DNA from: Deltaproteobacteria bacterium
GTDB taxonomy: Bacteria > Desulfobacterota > Binatia > HRBIN30
Reading direction: 5' to 3'
Assembly (NCBI GenBank): GCA_017860575.1
Contig: JAGDMS010000133.1
Coordinates: 1-33,375, forward strand
DNA: 33,375 nt
Below are positions 19,296-31,375 of this stretch, in pieces (position 1 is the stretch's first letter; each line of letters starts with the position of its first letter). Position numbers and translations under genes: made by a program. The notes under the pieces were generated by a model. The model searched no databases and was not told where the DNA came from. It saw nothing but the letters and a program-made list of their open reading frames with translations.

Positions 19296-20135
19296 TCAGG
19301 CCTTCGCCATCTCCCCCCGTTCCGCATCCGCGCGCACGACACACACCTTTTCGCTGAAATCTTCGAAGAAGTACCCCGACCCCCCTTCGCTCACCACCTG
19401 CAGCATCTTGTCGGGATTGCGCACGCGGATGCCCCCCAGCACATGCACGCCGCGGGCGAAAAACGGCGGCGGCCACGGGCTCGCCGTCGGGCCGGCAAGC
19501 ACGAAGCAGCGCACCCCGCGCGCGAGTGCGAGCAAGCCATCGAGACCGCCCTCGATCAGCGCCGACCCGGTCGCGATCACCACCGTGGCTGTCGGGGCCA
19601 GATCGACGATCCGGGCTGGATCGCGCCACAGGTCGCGTTCGTCGGGCTTCAGCGCCTCCGGGTGCTTGTCCACGATCCACAGGTCCGCCACCCGCCCCTT
19701 CAACGCACGGATGAACGGGACAAAACCCCCGATCATGAGCACCCGATCCTCGGCGCACACCGCAGCCGCCGCCAACGCGTCCACGCCCGGTAAAAGACGA
19801 CCGCCGGGAATGCCGTGACGTTCGATGGCCAGCGCCGAGAGGGCGTTCAGCACGGCAACACCGACCGCACGGCGCAGCGGCACGTCAGTCAGCGCGTACC
19901 GCGACAGCGCCCACGCATCCTGCCCGGCGACGCGGCCGGCCGGCGGCGCGGCCGCCGCCGTGCGCGGGCAGCACACCGTGTCGCTCACATCGCGCGGCGT
20001 GAACGCTACGCCAACGTGCCCGGTCGACAAACGGGCAGCGGTGTAGAAGACGCCCATGCGCAAGTCGGAGACGAGCACACGCTCATCCCCCAGCACCGCG
20101 CCGAGATCGTCAACCCATGCCTGAATCAGCTCCAT
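19296..20135 (-). CDS. DUF4213/DUF364 putative heavy-metal chelation protein
   Basis: The 279-residue protein matches the two-part DUF4213-DUF364 architecture. The N-terminal half carries VGVAFTPRD and LRRAVGVAVLNALSAL; the C-terminal half (about 130-265) carries VLMIGGFVPFI, LWIVDKHPEALKPDE, ATVVIATGSALIEGGLDGLL and a conserved VLAGPTASPWPP loop. The Pfam DUF364 description as a putative heavy-metal-binding domain rests on structure, not on biochemistry. No signal peptide or membrane segment is present. It is convergent with the PaaK-like gene (stops 63 bases apart). The start at 20135 has only a weak AGGG upstream. Confidence 0.87.
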   Translation of the reverse strand: MELIQAWVDDLGAVLGDERVLVSDLRMGVFYTAARLSTGHVGVAFTPRDVSDTVCCPRTAAAAPPAGRVAGQDAWALSRYALTDVPLRRAVGVAVLNALSALAIERHGIPGGRLLPGVDALAAAAVCAEDRVLMIGGFVPFIRALKGRVADLWIVDKHPEALKPDERDLWRDPARIVDLAPTATVVIATGSALIEGGLDGLLALARGVRCFVLAGPTASPWPPPFFARGVHVLGGIRVRNPDKMLQVVSEGGSGYFFEDFSEKVCVVRADAERGEMAKA

Positions 20136-22345: not shown

Positions 22346-22364
22346 GTGGCTTCTACCTGAAGGA

Positions 22365-22482
22365 GATCGCTATTGCCCTTGGTTATACCGACCTCTTCCA
22401 TCTCCATCTGAGCAAAACGTTCAAACGTTTGGTCGGTATCGCACCTCGACGCTTCCGTGAGCACCATCGCAAAGTGACATAA
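22365..22482 (+). pseudogene. AraC-family regulator, C-terminal HTH remnant (copy 1)
   Basis: The last ~38 codons of an AraC/XylS-type regulator survive: EIAIALGYTDLFHLHLSKTF, then KRLVGIAPRRFREHHRKVT and stop. This is the second helix-turn-helix of the AraC DNA-binding domain. A six-base duplication (CATCTC/CATCTG) adds two residues compared with copy 2. Nothing upstream of 22365 matches an AraC protein. Homologous tails stand before the receptors at 25608 and 28713. Confidence 0.75.
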
Positions 22483-22633
22483 AACTCAGGCCATTTTGCC
22501 ATTGGTTCCTCCCCTGGCTGGTGTGCTATTCCCGCGGCGATCATTGACAATGGGTTCTTGCCTTGGGGGATGCACCGTTGTTGGCCAAGCGCGGAACGCG
22601 AGGGGCCATTAAATTCAACAGGGAGGGGAAAGC
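22483..22633. repeat. Conserved receptor leader, copy 1
   Basis: About 150 bases between the AraC tail and the receptor start are shared with 25720-25870 and 28772-28917, including GGCCATTTTGCCATT, GTTGTTGGCC and GCGGAACGCG. A TTGACA occurs in copies 1 and 2 but without a -10 at normal distance. No coding frame is seen. Confidence 0.65.
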
Positions 22634-25063
22634 ATGCTAAACATCGGAAATTCCATGCGATTCGGAATTGGGCTGGCCCTGGTCGCCGGGCTGACCGTTC
22701 CTTCGGCCGGTTGGGCGCAAGCCGCAAGGAAGGGAGCGCCGGGGCAAGCAATGGAGATCGAAGAGATTACGGTCACAGCGCAGAAGCGCGAAGAGGCTCT
22801 TCAAGAAACGCCGATTTCCGTCACCGCGCTCACCAGTGATGCCCTGCAGAATGCAGGTGTGTCTAGCCTCCTGGATATCGCTGCTTCCGTGCCGAGTGTG
22901 CGTCTCTCTAACAATCCGGGGGGCAACAACAGTATCACGTTTGCAATGCGTGGGCTGTCCCAGGGGAGTCCGCAGACGGCATTCGCGCCCAAAGTGGGGC
23001 TCTATCTAGATGGGGCGTACATCGCGCAATTGAAGGGGTCCAACTTTGACCTCGAAGATGCCGAGCGGGTCGAGGTTTTGCGGGGGCCTCAAGGCACGCT
23101 GTACGGCCGCAATACGATTGGCGGCGCGGTGAATTTCATCACCAATAAGCCAACCGAGGATCGCTCGATTACGGTCAGCTCCGAAGTGGGGAACTACGAC
23201 ACCTTCAAGGGGCGCGCCACGTTCAACGTGCCGTTGATCGGCAAGAATGGATTCTTCCAGTCCGAGGCCCTGGGGACGTTGAGTCTGCGAGAGACCGCCG
23301 GCTACAAGACGCATGAAGGCTTCTATCGCAACGCGCTGGCAGCAAACATGCCGGCCACTCCCAGACCCGGCGGTGGCGCCGACTACGACGACCTGAACCG
23401 CGTTTTTAACTTCACGGCGCTACGCTGGCAGCCCACTCGTGACGTCAAGCTGGACTACTTGTTTGAGTACCACCGCTATCACCAACACACGACGAATTTC
23501 GCGCTCACCTACGTGTATCCGGGCTCGCCCATATCCCGCCCGCAGGTCCCCAGCTTGTACGCCGTGCCCTACATTCAAAAGAACCGTCCTGATGTGATCC
23601 CTACGAACGCCGTAAACCAGGTCGACGTACCCCGTACTGACGAGAGTCGCGACGACGGTCACCACCGCATGCATATTTTGACCGGCAGCTGGGACATCGG
23701 CGAACTCGGACCCCTGGGTAGCACCACCCTCAAGTCGATCTCTGTCTATCGCAGCTTATTGGCCGAGGGGGTCCGGGACGCGGATGGCACACCGTTGCCC
23801 ATCGCCGATACCAGCACACCGAGCTCGATCACGCATTGGAGTCAAGAGCTGCAATGGATTGGTAACGCTCCGCGCGTTCACTACATCCTGGGGGCATACT
23901 ACTTCGGCGAATACGACATGTACCGCTCGCGGCAGAGCTTCTTCGGCGGAGCGTCGAAAACCAGCTTAAAGAACTTCAACAAACTCAAGTCGTATGCGGC
24001 GTACGGCCAGGGCACCTGGACGCCACCGATTCTCAACGACAGGCTCAGCCTCACGGCTGGCCTGCGCATCACGCAAGAGCAGGTCCATCTCGATCACTTT
24101 ATTACACAGGTAGCCAGGCCCTTCAGTCAAGTGGGCGGAAAGGCGTTTGGGGGCATCCACGGTGCGGGTGCCCCTGGGATCGACCCAATGGGGGATATCT
24201 CCTATCAATGGACGGATGACGTGATGACCTATGTTCGCGCCGCCCGCGGTTTTGCCGGCGGCGGAATCAACCCCGCTGGCACGATCCCGCAGTTGTTTAC
24301 TCCTTTCGATCCGGAGTCGCTGTGGAACTTCGAGGCCGGATTCAAAACACAGTGGCTCAACAACCGGCTGCGGCTCAATGCCGACGGGTACTTCAGTTAT
24401 TATAAGGATTTGCAGCAAACGGTGTTTCGGGCCAGTCCGACCTTGGGCACACTCCAAATCAGCTCAAATGTCGATCGGGCCGAAATCTGGGGGATGGAGT
24501 TCGAAGGGACAGCGATTCCGTTTCGCGGTATGGAAGCGACCGTGGCGTACAGCTTCCTGGCGCCGAAATTTACGAAATGGTTGGACCAGGCGTTCGATGC
24601 CAATAACAGGCCGATTTTTGATCCCGCGGGGAACCCCGTCCTGGAGAACGTGGCGGACCAGCGGACCTTCGGGAACAGCCCCCGACATCAAATCACAGCA
24701 GGGCTCACGTATACTGCGCCGCCGACCACCACCGGAACCTTCTCCGCGCATCTTGACGTGTTCTGGCAGGACAAAGTGGTTTTCGTCGTTAACAATCTAA
24801 CCGCCGGCAGCCAGGCCGATGAAGGCTGGGCGTATGCGCTGGTCAACGGCCGCCTGGCGTACGTCGGAATTCCGTTGCAGAAGGGTAGTCTCGATGTCGC
24901 GGTGTATTCCCGCAACCTCCTCGACCGGAAATACCGCACGTATGGCATCGATTTCGGCTCATCGGTCGGCTTCTCTGGCAACCAGTACGGCGACCCACGC
25001 ACGTGTGCACTTCGATTTCGACAAGGCGACGCTGAAGGCGGATGCCAAACCAATCCTCGATGA
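22634..25063 (+). CDS. TonB-dependent outer-membrane receptor (copy A), C-terminus altered by deletion
   Basis: ATG 22634 follows GGGAGGGG. The product starts with a signal peptide (GIGLALVAGLTVPSAGWAQ), then a TonB box/plug (EIEEITVTAQKREEALQETP; VEVLRGPQGTLYGRNTIGGA) and a 22-strand-type barrel to about residue 790. It would import an unknown large substrate across the outer membrane using TonB energy. After RKYRTYGIDFGSS...YGDPRT the frame shifts into CALRFRQGDAEGG and stops. Compared with copy B about 122 bases are missing here, removing the last barrel strand (TFGLQLTYNY), a Pro-rich linker and the in-frame join to an OmpA domain that survives at 25004-25319. Because the terminal strand is needed for assembly, the product may be non-functional. 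Confidence 0.85.
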   Translation: MLNIGNSMRFGIGLALVAGLTVPSAGWAQAARKGAPGQAMEIEEITVTAQKREEALQETPISVTALTSDALQNAGVSSLLDIAASVPSVRLSNNPGGNNSITFAMRGLSQGSPQTAFAPKVGLYLDGAYIAQLKGSNFDLEDAERVEVLRGPQGTLYGRNTIGGAVNFITNKPTEDRSITVSSEVGNYDTFKGRATFNVPLIGKNGFFQSEALGTLSLRETAGYKTHEGFYRNALAANMPATPRPGGGADYDDLNRVFNFTALRWQPTRDVKLDYLFEYHRYHQHTTNFALTYVYPGSPISRPQVPSLYAVPYIQKNRPDVIPTNAVNQVDVPRTDESRDDGHHRMHILTGSWDIGELGPLGSTTLKSISVYRSLLAEGVRDADGTPLPIADTSTPSSITHWSQELQWIGNAPRVHYILGAYYFGEYDMYRSRQSFFGGASKTSLKNFNKLKSYAAYGQGTWTPPILNDRLSLTAGLRITQEQVHLDHFITQVARPFSQVGGKAFGGIHGAGAPGIDPMGDISYQWTDDVMTYVRAARGFAGGGINPAGTIPQLFTPFDPESLWNFEAGFKTQWLNNRLRLNADGYFSYYKDLQQTVFRASPTLGTLQISSNVDRAEIWGMEFEGTAIPFRGMEATVAYSFLAPKFTKWLDQAFDANNRPIFDPAGNPVLENVADQRTFGNSPRHQITAGLTYTAPPTTTGTFSAHLDVFWQDKVVFVVNNLTAGSQADEGWAYALVNGRLAYVGIPLQKGSLDVAVYSRNLLDRKYRTYGIDFGSSVGFSGNQYGDPRTCALRFRQGDAEGGCQTNPR

Positions 25064-25319
25064 GGCCATCCAGGTGCTGAAGCAGGAGGGGAGTGTCGAC
25101 ATCGTGGTCGAGGGCCATACCGATAGCGTGGGGACCGACCAGTACAACCTCGGCCTGTCGCGCCGGCGGGCGGAGACCGTGCGGCGCTATCTGGTGGATC
25201 ACGGCATCGCCAATTCGCGCATCACGGCGGAGGGCATGGGCGAGTCCAAGCCGGTGGCGTCGAACGACACCGCCGATGGGCGTGCACAGAATCGCCGGGT
25301 GGAACTGCATGTGAAGTGA
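25004..25319 (+). pseudogene. OmpA-like domain cut off from receptor copy A
   Basis: In the frame shifted relative to the receptor lies a full OmpA_C peptidoglycan-binding domain: VHFDFDKATLKADAKPILDE, IVVEGHTDSVGTDQYN, LSRRRAETVRRYL and GRAQNRRVELHVK before the stop. It has no start codon of its own with a ribosome-binding site. In copy B the same domain is joined in frame to the receptor barrel, so this is the 3' part of the same ancestral gene. Confidence 0.8.
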
Positions 25320-25607
25320 CCACTCCCGCGCCGAGACCGATAAGGGCGGGGCGATGGGGAATGCGTGTTTGCGGATCAGCGACGTTGGTTTGGGGTACGA
25401 ATGTAGCCCAAGCGCGCGCCGATCTGACGTGGAAAGCTGCATTGAGCCACAGGAGTGAGGCATCCTTATGGCCCCTCCTTGGGGATGGCCGCTCCTGGGG
25501 CTCATTGCGGTACCACGCGCGGAGGACACCGCAGGAAGGTGACCAACTCGTCCCCCGCTTCGTGCAGGCTCACCGCGACGCCGCTACAGCGCAGGCTCCA
25601 CTAAAAA
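25320..25607. other. Receptor 3' flank, duplicated downstream of copy B
   Basis: From the OmpA stop to about 25528 this matches 30985-31185 closely (AAAGCTGCATTGAGCCAC, CCCCTCCTTGGGGATG and CTCATTGCGGTA are shared). No gene is recognised. From about 25530 to the AraC tail at 25608 the sequence is unique and holds no recognisable feature. Confidence 0.6.
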
Positions 25608-25720
25608 GATCGCTATTGCCCTTGGTTATACCGACCTCTTCCATCTGAGCAAACCGTTCAAACGTGTGGTCGGTATCGCACCTCGACGCATCCCTGAGCA
25701 CCATCCCAAAGTGACATAAA
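25608..25720 (+). pseudogene. AraC-family regulator, C-terminal remnant (copy 2)
   Basis: The tail IAIALGYTDLFHLSKPFKRV, then VGIAPRRIPEHHPKVT and stop, is the second AraC helix-turn-helix with several substitutions against copy 1 (Arg-to-Pro changes near the end). The upstream sequence ending CTCCACTAAAAA is unrelated, so the gene has been cut. It precedes the leader-only receptor copy. Confidence 0.7.
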
Positions 25721-25968
25721 ACTCCGGCCATTTTGCCATTCCTTCTTCCCCTGGCTGGTGTGCTATTCGCGCTGCAATCCTTGACAAGGAGCTCTTGCCC
25801 CGGGGGGACGCACTGTTGTTGGCCCAGCGCGGAACGCGGGGGCCATTCATTTCAACGGGGAGGGAGAAGCGTGGCAACCGTCGGGAATGCGATGCGATTC
25901 GGAATTGGGCTGGCCCTGCTCACCGGGCTGACCGTTCCTTCGGCCGGTTGGGCGCAAGGGTCTGAGGT
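25721..25968 (+). pseudogene. Leader plus signal peptide of a receptor (copy 2, truncated)
   Basis: The conserved receptor leader is followed by GTG 25871 (GGGGAGGGAGAAGC upstream), encoding MATVGNAMRFGIGLALLTG and LTVPSAGWAQ, nearly identical to receptor copies A and B. Homology stops right after the signal-peptidase site at about 25968 and the plug and barrel are absent. The sequence then runs into the selenoprotein cassette. This is the left breakpoint of that cassette. Confidence 0.75.
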
Positions 25969-26076
25969 CGGAGATTATGTCGTGAAGAGGGGAATTCGGC
26001 CGCTAATGCTGCCTATCCACTCGTCGAGCAGGTGCTCGAGCATTGGACCAAGGGACGACCGGAGCGGGGCGCCCGC

Positions 26077-26895
26077 GTGAGCATCACCATCGATCTCACC
26101 GGGAAGGCCGCGCTCGTCACCGGCTCCGGCGCGGGCATCGGCGCGGAGGTCGCGGTGTGGCTGGCCCGGGCCGGCGCCGCGGTCGCCGTCAACGACGTCC
26201 GCGCCGAGAAGGCGCACGAGGTGATCTCCCGCATCACCGCCGAGGGCGGCCGGGCCGTCCCCGTCATCTTCAACTGCCGCGACGACGCGCAGATCGAGCA
26301 GATGGTCGGCGCCGCCGTGGATCAGCTCGGCGGCCTCGATATCGCCGTCAACAACATCGGAATGACCGCCGGGTACGCGCAGGGCCCCTTCGGCACCATT
26401 CCGGCCGAATCCTGGCGGGGCATCGTCGACCAGAACCTCATCCTTACGGCCCTCTGCGGCCAGGCCGAGGCGCGGGTCATGCAAGCGCAGGGCCGGGGCG
26501 GAGTGATCGTCAACGTGTCGTCCGGCGAGACGACCCGCCCATCGCCGTACATGGCGGCCTACGGGGCGGCGAAGGCCGCCATCAACCATCTCACCAGCAC
26601 GATGGCGGTCGAGCTCGGGCCGTCCGGCATCCGCGTTGTCGCCATCGCGCCCGGGACCACCCTCACCGAGGTGGTCCGGGCCGTCTTCGACGACGCCGGG
26701 GTCGAGGCGATCCGCCAGTCGCACCCGCTGCGCGTGATGACCGAGCCCGAGGAGTTGGCCCGCCTGTCGGTCTTCCTCGTGTCCGATCTCGCCCGCTGCA
26801 TCACTGGGCAGCTGATCCTGGCCGACGCCGGCGCGCACCTCTCGCGCTCCCGGCCGGCCAACGCCCCCGGCCCCGCCGCCAAGGAGAGCGGATGA
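26077..26895 (+). CDS. Short-chain dehydrogenase/reductase (SDR)
   Basis: The 272-residue protein is a classical SDR oxidoreductase: Rossmann motif TGSGAGIG (15-22), NNIG at 92-95, the active-site Ser in VNVSSG (148-150) and the catalytic Tyr162-x3-Lys166 pair in AYGAAKAA, then GIRVVAIAPGT and the C-terminal ITGQLILADAG. It would oxidise or reduce an alcohol/ketone with NAD(P)(H); the substrate is unknown. GTG 26077 is chosen because GGAGCGGGG stands before it; the frame is open further upstream, with NAAYPLVEQVLEHWTKGRPE readable there, perhaps the end of a lost upstream gene. Its stop overlaps the next start (ATGA at 26892), so it is coupled to the partner protein and probably the selenoprotein. 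Base composition is richer in GC than the flanking receptor genes. Confidence 0.9.
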   Translation: MSITIDLTGKAALVTGSGAGIGAEVAVWLARAGAAVAVNDVRAEKAHEVISRITAEGGRAVPVIFNCRDDAQIEQMVGAAVDQLGGLDIAVNNIGMTAGYAQGPFGTIPAESWRGIVDQNLILTALCGQAEARVMQAQGRGGVIVNVSSGETTRPSPYMAAYGAAKAAINHLTSTMAVELGPSGIRVVAIAPGTTLTEVVRAVFDDAGVEAIRQSHPLRVMTEPEELARLSVFLVSDLARCITGQLILADAGAHLSRSRPANAPGPAAKESG

Positions 26896-27947: not shown

Positions 27948-27981
27948 GCCATACGCCGCGAATGACGAAAGGAGAGTCGAC

Positions 27982-28512
27982 ATGCTGAAGATTTACTCAC
28001 CCGAAGGGTTGCAGGGCCAACAGCCGCTGCAACTGGCGCCGGCACCGGCGGCACTCGCCGGACTGCGACTCGCGGTGCTCGACAACCGCAAGCCCAATGC
28101 CAGGCTGCTGCTGGAGCAAGTGGCGCACGGTCTCGCGCAGCGCGCCGGCGTGTGTGTCGCCGCGGTCACCGCGAAGGCGAACGCCGCTGTCGCCTGCAAC
28201 CCGGAACTGCTCGGCCAGCTGCGCGAGCAGGCCGACGTCATCCTGACCGGAAGCGCCGATTGAGGGTCGTGTACGTCGTGGAGTGTCCACGACCAGATGC
28301 GACTGGAAGCGATGGGGCGGCCGACGGTGCTGCTGGCGACCTCGCGCTTCGCCGACTTCGCTCGCGAGTCGGCCATCGGCTACGGCCTCCCGAACGCCCG
28401 CATCGTCGTGGTCGAGCACCCGCTTGGCGGCGTCGCCGAACCGCTGATCGCGGCCCGCGCCGCGGCGGCGGTCGACGCTGTGATCCAGCTGCTCTCGCGC
28501 CCTTCCCGATGA
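27982..28512 (+). CDS. UGSC-family selenoprotein (Sec94 encoded by in-frame UGA)
   Basis: ATG 27982 has a strong AAAGGAGAG site. The frame reads MLKIYSPEG, LAGLRLAVLDNRKPNARLLL and ADVILTGSAD, then TGA at 28261, and continues without a shift: GSCTSWSVHDQMRLEAMGRP, TVLLATSRFADFARESAIGY, GGVAEPLIAARAA, to TGA 28510. Treating the first UGA as selenocysteine gives a 176-residue protein with U94-G95-S96-C97, the defining motif of the UGSC family. That both halves match the family across the UGA is the main support. The hairpin at 28275-28293 fits a bacterial SECIS. A selenol redox role is assumed from the U-x2-C motif; the substrate is unknown. The last stop overlaps the ATG of a damaged AraC regulator. 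Automated calls would split it into two false genes at 28263. Confidence 0.88.
28264..28294 (+). promoter_or_regulatory. SECIS-like hairpin directing UGA recoding
   Basis: Starting exactly 11 bases after the UGA, GTCGTGGA (28275-28282) and TCCACGAC (28286-28293) form a perfect 8-bp stem closed by the loop GTG. Spacing matches the known position of the bacterial SECIS upper stem. An alternative register, GGTCGTG (28265-28271) with CACGACC (28288-28294), is also possible. Lies inside the coding sequence, as expected in bacteria. Confidence 0.7.
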
Positions 28513-28811
28513 ACTGGGAACTTTCCGAGACGGAGGCTGGGTTCTACCTGCAGCGATTCGCTGGCACAAACGCTCTCCTTGCTGACCGCCCGCATCGGCA
28601 CGATCTTCAGCATATTTGCGTTGTCCAATCTGGTTGTGGCGGCAGGCCGATCGATGGGTATCGCAGCGATTTCCGCCCGAACAGCATCTACCTCATCGCA
28701 AAAGGCCACGTACGTTTGGTCGGTATCGCACCTCGACGCTTCCGTGAGCACCATCGCAAAGTGACATCAAACTCCGGCCATTTTGCCATTTTTGCTTGCC
28801 CAGGCTGGTGA
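28509..28811 (+). pseudogene. AraC-family regulator with internal deletion (copy 3)
   Basis: ATG 28509 overlaps the selenoprotein stop (ATGA). The 100-residue frame begins with an AraC-type cupin sensor domain (MNWELSETEAGFYLQRFAGT, PHRHDLQHICVVQSGCGG, RPNSIYLIAKGHV) and at residue ~68 jumps directly to the last helix of the AraC DNA-binding domain, RLVGIAPRRFREHHRKVT, then reads on because TGACATAA has become TGACATCA. Roughly 200 residues between sensor and tail are missing, so it cannot bind DNA normally. Copies 1 and 2 keep only the tail. It shows that the locus once had a full AraC regulator directly before the receptor. Confidence 0.75.
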
Positions 28812-28917
28812 TATTTGCGTTGCGATCAATGACATGCGGTTCTTACGCCCGGGGGGTGCACTGTTGTTGGCCCGGCGCGGAACGCGGGGGCCATTCAATT
28901 CGCTGGGGGGAAAAAGC

Positions 28918-30984
28918 ATGGCAAACGTCGGGAACCCGATGCGATTCGGAATTGGGCTGGGCCCTGCTCGCCGGGCTGACCGTTCCTTCGGCCGGTTGGG
29001 CGCAAGCCGCAAGGCAGGAGGCGCCGGGGCGCGAAATCGAGATCCGAGAGGTTACGGTCACAGCGCAGAAGCGCGAAGAGGCTCTTCAAGAAACGCCGAT
29101 TTCCGTCAGCGCGCTCACCAGTGACGCGCTGCAGAATAAGGGTGTGTCGAACATCGCCGATCTCGCTACTGCCGTACCGAATACGCGTGTCTCGGAAAGT
29201 CCGGTGAGCAACAACATTCTGACGGCTACAATTCGTGGGCTGTCCCAGGGGAATCCGCAGACCCCCTGGGCAGCACCACACTCAAGTCGAACTCCGTATA
29301 TCGCAGCTTATTGGCCGAGGGGCTCTGGGACCCGGATGGCACACCGAACCACATTGCCGAGATCCTCACACCGAGCGAGATCTCGCATTGGAGTGAAGAG
29401 TTGCAGTGGATTGGTGCCGCTCCGCGTTTTCACTACATCCTGGGGGCATACTACTACGGCGAATACGACATGTACCGCTCGCGGCAGACCTTTTTCGGCG
29501 GAGCGTCGAAATCCGGCTACAAGAACTTCAACAAACTCAAGTCATATGCGGCCTACGGCCATGGCAGCTGGACGCCACCGATTCTCAACGACAAGCTCAG
29601 CCTCACGGCTGGCCTGCGCATCACTCAGGAGCAGGTCCATCCCGATCACCTGGTTACAACGGCGTCCGGAGGCCCCTTCAATGCAAAGGGCGGAAAGGCC
29701 TTTGGGGGAATCCATGGCGCGGGCGCCCCGGGGATCGACCCGATGGGCGACATTTCCTACCAGTGGACGGATGACCTGATGACCTATTTTCGCGTCACCC
29801 GCGGTTTTTCCGGCGGAGGATTCGACCCCAGTGGCACGCTCCCGCAATTATTTAGAAGTTTCAATCCGGAGACGCTGTGGGCCTTCGAGGCCGGGGTGAA
29901 ATCACAGTGGCTAAACAACCGGCTGCGGCTCAATGCCGACGGGTTCTTCAGTTATTATAAGGATATGCAGGTATCGGTGTTTATGGCCAGTCCGACCTTG
30001 GGCACACTCAGTGTCGCCTCAAATGCCCAACGAGCCGAAATCTGGGGGATGGAGTTCGAAGCGACGGCGATTCCGTTTCGCGGTATGGAAGCGACCGTGA
30101 CGTACAGCTTCCTGGCGCCGAAATATACGAAATGGCTCGATCAGCAATTCGACGCCAACAATCAGCCGATTTTTGATTCCTCGGGGAAACCCGTCCTGGT
30201 GAACGTGGCGGACACGCGGACCTTCGCGGCTGCTCCCCGACATCAAATCACAGCAGGGCTCACGTATACTGCGCCGCCGACCACCACCGGAACTTTCTCC
30301 GCGCATGTTGACGTGTACTGGCAGGACAAAGTGGCTTACGTCCCCAGCAATCAGACCCCGGGGGCGCAAGCCGATGAGGGCTGGGCGTATGCGCTGGTCA
30401 ACGGCCGCTTGGCGTACACCGGAATTCCGTTGCAGAAGGGCAGTCTCGATGTCGCGGTCTATTCCCGCAACCTCCTCGACCGGAAATACCGCACGTATGG
30501 CATCGATTTCGGCTTCGCGGGCAACATGTACGGCGACCCACGCACGTTCGGCCTGCAACTGACCTATAACTATACGGCTGGGGCGGAGCCGGTGGCGCCG
30601 CCGCCGGCCCCGGTGGCGCAGGCCGCGCCGCCTCCGCCGCCGGCCAAGAAGAAGATCGTGCTCCGCAGCGTGCACTTCGACTTCGACAAGGCGACGCTGA
30701 AGGCCGATGTCAAGCCGATCCTCGATGAGGCCGTGCAGGTGCTCACGCAGGAAGGGAGCGTCGACATCATCGTCGAGGGCCATACCGACAGCGTGGAGAC
30801 CGACCAGTACAACCTGGGCCTGTCGCGTCGGCGAGCGGAAACCGTGCGGACCTATCTGTTGGACCACGGCATCGCCAAATCGCGCATCACGGCGGAGGGC
30901 ATGGGCGAGTCCAAGCCCGTGGCGTCGAACGACGCCGCCGATGGGCGTGCGCAGAATCGACGGGTGGAATTGCATGTGAAGTGA
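28918..30984 (+). pseudogene. TonB-dependent receptor copy B, disrupted
   Basis: Compared with copy A this gene has one extra G in the signal peptide (CTGGGCCCTG for CTGGCCCTG near 28960), which sends translation to a stop at 29124, and lacks 733 bases (copy A 22978-23710, joined at 29262/29263). The lost piece encodes most of the plug and the first barrel strands. The +1 and the deletion cancel, so the rest is in the original frame from about 29263. The signal peptide, TonB box/plug start (IREVTVTAQKREEALQETP) and late barrel are clearly homologous to copy A. No full-length product is possible. Confidence 0.85.
29311..30984 (+). CDS. Barrel C-terminus fused to an OmpA domain (open part of copy B)
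   Basis: The longest intact frame of the disrupted copy is 557 residues from an ATG at 29311, without a credible ribosome-binding site. It holds the last ~400 residues of a TonB receptor barrel ending RTFGLQLTYNY, a Pro/Ala linker (about 30590-30650), and a complete OmpA_C domain (VHFDFDKATLKADVKPILDE; VEGHTDSVETDQYN; GRAQNRRVEL) to the stop. The fusion of a TonB receptor to a peptidoglycan-binding OmpA domain is unusual and is the ancestral form of copy A as well. Expression from this internal start is doubtful; the value of the frame is as evidence for the fusion. Confidence 0.6.
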   Translation: MAEGLWDPDGTPNHIAEILTPSEISHWSEELQWIGAAPRFHYILGAYYYGEYDMYRSRQTFFGGASKSGYKNFNKLKSYAAYGHGSWTPPILNDKLSLTAGLRITQEQVHPDHLVTTASGGPFNAKGGKAFGGIHGAGAPGIDPMGDISYQWTDDLMTYFRVTRGFSGGGFDPSGTLPQLFRSFNPETLWAFEAGVKSQWLNNRLRLNADGFFSYYKDMQVSVFMASPTLGTLSVASNAQRAEIWGMEFEATAIPFRGMEATVTYSFLAPKYTKWLDQQFDANNQPIFDSSGKPVLVNVADTRTFAAAPRHQITAGLTYTAPPTTTGTFSAHVDVYWQDKVAYVPSNQTPGAQADEGWAYALVNGRLAYTGIPLQKGSLDVAVYSRNLLDRKYRTYGIDFGFAGNMYGDPRTFGLQLTYNYTAGAEPVAPPPAPVAQAAPPPPPAKKKIVLRSVHFDFDKATLKADVKPILDEAVQVLTQEGSVDIIVEGHTDSVETDQYNLGLSRRRAETVRTYLLDHGIAKSRITAEGMGESKPVASNDAADGRAQNRRVELHVK

Positions 30985-31375
30985 CCACTTCGGCGCCCAG
31001 ACCGATGAGGGTTGGGCGCCGGGGGAATGTGCGTCAGCGGATCAGCGCTGTCGGTGTGGGGTGCGAATGGAACCTGAGCGCGTGCCAATCCGGCACGGAA
31101 AGCTGCATTGAGCCACGGGGGTGAGGCCTCCTCTGGGCCCCTCCTTGGGGATGCCCGCTCCTGGGGCTCATTGCGGTAGCACGCGCGGTGGTAGCATCGC
31201 GCGGCACACCTGGGGCGCGAGAGAGTGGGCTTTCGAGAGGTGCAGCGATGGGAGTCAGGATATACATCCAAACCATTATCTTTCCGCCTGGGGGTGCCAG
31301 CCCAGCTCCGTCGCTGACGCTAGTGCGACGATTGGAGTTGCCAGCGCGGTTCCACGAAGGACGGAAGGCTAGACG
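30985..31375. other. Intergenic region after copy B
   Basis: The first ~200 bases duplicate the flank after copy A. From about 31190 the sequence is unique and leads to the fourth receptor; it has no AraC tail, unlike the other three leaders. GGAAGG at 31363 is the ribosome-binding site of that receptor. No other gene is recognised. Confidence 0.55.

Follow-up and report, generated by a model that had tools for sequence, protein, structure and literature searches.

The locus

The window, by which we mean the whole stretch of 33,375 nucleotides under analysis, holds on its forward strand an apparent operon of three genes (Table 1). It begins with a short-chain dehydrogenase/reductase (SDR), whose stop codon overlaps the ATG of a gene encoding a protein of 351 amino acids, and this partner gene is followed by a frame that opens with an ATG at 27982, meets an in-frame TGA and closes only with a second TGA at 28510-28512. 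Read with the internal TGA as selenocysteine (Sec), the frame gives a product of 176 amino acids with a predicted mass of 18.4 kDa, in which Sec is residue 94 and the motif UGSC occupies residues 94-97. In our opinion it is nearly certain that this is a functional selenoprotein gene whose UGA is read as Sec, and we infer the insertion of Sec in vivo at this codon from the comparisons given below.

Table 1. Features of the operon with the in-frame UGA, with the evidence for each
Feature	Position	Strand	Evidence
Short-chain dehydrogenase/reductase (SDR), start codon uncertain	26032..26895	+	Pfam PF13561, 7.9e-54
Conserved partner gene, 351 aa	26892..27947	+	tblastn neighbourhood; AlphaFold2 model, pLDDT 88.8
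Probable ribosome-binding site AAAGGAG	27968..27974	+	7 nt 5' of the ATG; read off the sequence
Predicted UGSC-family selenoprotein gene	27982..28512	+	translation with TGA as U; PF24696, 4.6e-44; NF041046, 125.2 bits
In-frame UGA, predicted Sec codon, first residue of UGSC	28261..28263	+	frame; TGA or TGC in all aligned relatives
SECIS hairpin, 8-bp stem, GUG loop	28275..28293	+	fold, covariation, bSECIS limits, fdhF positions
Stem, 5' arm, GTCGTGGA	28275..28282	+	
Loop, GTG	28283..28285	+	
Stem, 3' arm, TCCACGAC	28286..28293	+	

The first-pass annotation, made from the letters of the DNA, had placed the frame and its UGA exactly, and it had also described family-conserved sequence on both sides of the codon. 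Indeed, the Pfam model PF24696 (UGSC) matches residues 4-172 of the product with 151 bits against a cut-off of 25, thus spanning Sec94, and the product carries the U/C-G-S-C motif of the family with Sec at its first position. The NCBIfam model NF041046, "UGSC family (seleno)protein", has a cut-off of 125 bits, which is passed by a margin of 0.2 bits. The further expectation, that two truncated genes would come out of standard annotation, is borne out by naive ORF callers, which recover 27982-28263 only, but the NCBI annotation library does include NF041046. An ORF of 219 amino acids in another frame (28152-28811) is without an NCBIfam family.

The naive ORF list closes the gene at 28263, as would be expected if the UGA truly terminated translation or had arisen by a disabling mutation, with a decaying remnant downstream of it. 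We consider such a situation extremely improbable. The profile match runs on to residue 172, homologues are strongly conserved 3' of the UGA, the UGA is shared by UGSC genes from about 100 genomes within the class, and the hairpin that lies 3' of it is kept with compensatory changes.

The hairpin downstream of the UGA

Exactly 11 nucleotides separate the UGA from a stem in which all eight of the eight base pairs are formed, just as had been claimed from the letters. The two strands of the whole window contain 832 TGA triplets, of which the one at 28261 alone has a complete eight-pair stem at this distance. The isolated hairpin folds with -11.4 kcal/mol, and its folding-energy z of -1.2 to -2.0 is modestly unusual. 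Because the energy alone is not outstanding, the case for a SECIS element rests on comparison.

Among 53 distinct relatives, 92.5% of the stem cells are paired, as against 82.4% in shuffled alignments, and the covariation score is 0.236 as against 0.085; none of 500 shuffles was as high in either measure. Double changes, affecting both sides, are seen in six of the eight stem pairs, and pairing falls to 14-49% when the partner is slid by one to three columns. At pair 21-27, CG is seen in 28 rows and GC in 25; on one side the switch appears in the protein as a Trp/Cys difference, while on the other side it is, in most rows, a synonymous change of a Val codon. GU occupies loop positions 23-24 in 60 of 64 rows with UGA and in none of the six rows with Cys. 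Among the four exceptions, L020 owes its place to a wrongly picked TGA, and it was excluded from the covariation test.

It may be argued that the conserved peptide TSWSVHD gives rise to the hairpin by chance and that no signal is involved, given that the peptide limits the choice of codons and that the energy is so modestly unusual. We give this argument hardly any weight. When the same peptide is recoded synonymously with local codon usage, 1.0% of the recodings keep the complete stem and 0.3% keep it together with GU at positions 23-24; the GC/CG switch of pair 21-27 is compensated mostly through synonymous Val codons; and Cys homologues with a similar peptide have AGC instead of AGT, with the pairing partly broken. 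We regard the hairpin as a conserved SECIS element.

The hairpin lies within all published bSECIS limits (PMC13188914): a loop of 3-9 nt (here 3), a stem of 4-16 bp (here 8), a G among the first two loop positions (here the first), a distance from UGA to loop of 16-37 nt (here 19) and a minimum free energy of -7.5 kcal/mol or lower. The SECIS of E. coli fdhF, the gene of formate dehydrogenase H, occupies positions 15-31, begins 11 nt from the UGA and exposes G23 and U24 in its loop (PMC8659212). The element described here has the same spacing, the same start at position 15 and the same G23/U24 loop, but its stem is longer and uninterrupted (15-22 with 26-33), the bulged U17 of fdhF is without counterpart, and the two proteins differ. 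A scan of the window with Rfam returned nothing at the gathering threshold.

Selenocysteine machinery of the source genome

The presence of SelA, SelB, SelC and SelD had been implied by the first-pass annotation, and SelA, SelB, SelD and tRNA-Sec were all found when the source genome was searched family by family. The assembly, of which the window is contig C268, has 5.8 Mb in 601 contigs and is 93.8% complete and 6.1% contaminated. SelA (1.2e-156) and SelB (4.8e-119) are encoded side by side on contig C382, and the same assembly has a tRNA-Sec with the anticodon TCA (78.1 bits). SelD is interrupted by contig ends, so that its full length is not covered: its start is found where C289 ends, C401 contributes a C-terminal piece, likewise at the contig end, and the two pieces probably belong together. 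SelD has an in-frame UGA of its own, across which it reads GUACKIGP (L007 1480-2040, on C289 of the source genome G000), and this is followed by a stable hairpin, GGATCTC-GGT-GAGATCC. SelD would therefore be a second selenoprotein of the genome.

Given the level of contamination, one may ask whether SelA is native. Its identity to other SelA proteins reaches 76% and 72% in two genomes from its own family, 71% and 70% within the same order and 61-66% beyond it. This order is the one of native inheritance, and contamination as the source of SelA is therefore unlikely.

An in-frame UGA by itself is silent on the residue that is inserted, and the codon might specify another amino acid through a changed code or general read-through. 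In our view this is most improbable, as UGA terminates both this very gene (28510-28512) and the SDR gene (26893-26895), the genome has SelA, SelB, SelD and tRNA-Sec, and those relatives in which the residue is replaced have Cys there and come from genomes that lack SelA.

Accepting Sec as the inserted residue, we envisage that SelB carrying Sec-tRNA(Sec) would bind the hairpin, the loop of which would present G23 and U24, while the ribosome stands at the UGA; Sec would then be inserted and translation would run on to 28512.

Selenocysteine and cysteine forms among relatives

The first-pass annotation recommended an alignment with Cys-containing (CGSC) homologues, and such forms do exist. UGSC is found in 105 of 148 genomes of the class, and among the matches listed each copy has one TGA, except for six Cys copies in four genomes (G078, G105, G106 and G145); lower-scoring genomes beyond this listing were checked separately. 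In one further genome (G107) UGSC is a fragment that ends before Sec, and two more stop-free matches fall below the cut-off. SelA is absent from all four of the Cys-only genomes, and it is present in about 95 of the 100 informative genomes with UGA. The association between the UGA form and SelA has a p of about 3e-5, from counts of 96/5/0/4 that include G107 and with the kinship of the genomes ignored. In the Cys genomes the search for tRNA-Sec, with its cut-off of 47 bits, does return tRNAs that score 47-51 bits; true tRNA-Sec genes reach 70-81 bits, and we take the former for ordinary long-arm tRNAs. This amounts to a natural experiment, in which the UGSC protein of lineages without SelA has Cys and the loop signal of the hairpin is missing.

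These relatives also bear on the idea that a sequencing or assembly error turned the Cys codon TGC into TGA. It is true that a few relatives have TGC at this codon, but TGA recurs in the independent assemblies of the others, a hairpin that has GU in loop positions 23-24 accompanies TGA and not TGC, and the genome has the Sec machinery; an error of this kind is hardly credible. We thus retain the UGA as genuine and as a very probable Sec codon, and its recognition as a recoded codon from raw sequence is, in our opinion, confirmed as correct.

Five genomes with UGA have no SelA over the cut-off (G005, G077, G104, G138 and G139); these are draft assemblies with many contigs. Three of them have a tRNA-Sec over the cut-off. 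The remaining two, G005 and G138, carry UGA-bearing UGSC genes yet have neither SelA nor tRNA-Sec over the cut-off in assemblies rated as about 100% complete. G005 is the sole further representative of the genus to which the source genome belongs, and G138 has 12 UGSC matches. Either contigs are missing in these two cases or there is an odder cause.

A variant subfamily (L093, L094, L096 and L098) has USTC in place of UGSC. Its members have a different, longer GC-rich stretch 3' of the UGA, and the long frames in which they lie are closely followed by the partner.

Relation to the known UGSC family

UGSC-containing selenoproteins were described in 2008 in the survey of the Global Ocean Sampling (GOS) data, with 255 Sec forms as against 21 Cys forms (PMC2398784). 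Reviews of 2022 and 2026 list the family as well, and the later one counts it with the selenoproteins of largely uncharacterised function. The product of 27982-28512 is a fresh member of this known family: it shares the UGSC (UxxC) motif, the full-length profile match and the SECIS 3' of the UGA, the Sec form is again far commoner than the Cys form, and we see no substantive difference from the family as described in 2008 (PMC2398784; PF24696; NF041046). Because the family has been on record for so long, there is less novelty here than one might at first suppose. UGSC proteins are among the commonest environmental selenoproteins, and what is added here is their context, namely a partner gene that is near-obligate in this class, together with a confident structural model that has no thioredoxin among its best 50 PDB matches.

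Structure and possible function

The AlphaFold2 model of the UGSC protein has a mean pLDDT of 94.4 and consists of five beta-alpha units, forming a five-stranded alpha/beta fold, in which the modelled Sec lies between strand 86-92 and helix 95-110, where the helix starts. Its closest PDB matches are moderate, with a TM of about 0.5, and include flavodiiron/flavodoxin, lumazine synthase and glycosidase domains. A "likely Trx-like fold" was suggested in 2008 (PMC2398784). The five beta-alpha units and the absence of any thioredoxin among the best 50 PDB matches argue against this guess, and we do not assign the protein to the thioredoxin fold. In an alignment of 45 members, in which Cys stands for Sec, U94, C97 and D104 are invariant, and H146-P147 are near-invariant in the family. 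These residues would fit a UxxC redox site, with Sec94 and Cys97 as the predicted redox centre at the N-terminus of a helix; redox chemistry of UGSC appears plausible on these grounds.

A homologue of the 351-amino-acid partner, on the same strand, adjoins UGSC in 70 of 73 loci searched with tblastn. It sits before or after UGSC, mostly within a few hundred bases, and in some loci (for example L095) a single long frame spans both. Such a near-constant neighbour is a concrete handle on the function of UGSC. The survey of 2008 reported UGSC fused to a domain called "Unknown_1" (PMC2398784), and our partner may be this domain, as it too adjoins UGSC and shares a frame with it in L095; the two are set side by side here by description only. 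The partner matches no Pfam or NCBIfam model, and searches of PDB sequences with the UGSC and partner families returned no relative among solved structures. The fold search with the partner gave nothing below an E of 0.001; its best matches, an Fe-S fumarate hydratase and a Toblerone-fold hydrolase, have a TM of only about 0.2 and were not used. Cys84 and Cys182 of the partner are 90% conserved.

Selenoprotein subunits of glycine and D-proline reductase, GrdB and PrdB, have a UxxC-type selenium centre and work with partner subunits. The likeness of UGSC to them in this type of centre is a lead only. The Pfam families of GrdB and PrdB are absent among the 25 families listed for the 45 UGSC members at E <= 10, and descent of UGSC from GrdB/PrdB is thus without support.

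Tentatively, and with somewhat less than even confidence, we propose that UGSC and the adjacent partner would form a two-subunit redox selenoenzyme. The broader version of this proposal, which we likewise regard as possible but rather doubtful, is that the pair constitutes a widespread, uncharacterised two-subunit selenoenzyme that carries out a novel redox reaction, with a partner that belongs to a new family, has a fold unlike solved structures and contributes the conserved C84 and C182. If this is true, the reaction is one that is not assigned to any known selenoenzyme. The SDR may act on the same pathway. A close homologue lies beside the partner-UGSC pair in L022 (72%), and L021 has at its edge a match of 65%.

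Surroundings of the operon

A gene for a DUF364/DUF4213 putative heavy-metal chelation protein (19296-20135) lies on the minus strand, some 8 kb ahead of UGSC. The operon itself is flanked by two copies of a unit with a TonB-dependent receptor and OmpA (22364-25530 and 28690-31191), which are 84-91% alike over most blocks. A third piece (25640-25958), just before the operon, contains the end of an AraC-like gene and the start of a receptor, as if the SDR-partner-UGSC operon had taken the place of the receptor body. The second receptor (28796-30984) is split over two frames, with ORFs at 29311-30984, which carries the barrel and OmpA domain, and at 28796-29779; this may be a frameshift, an assembly error or a recombinant gene.
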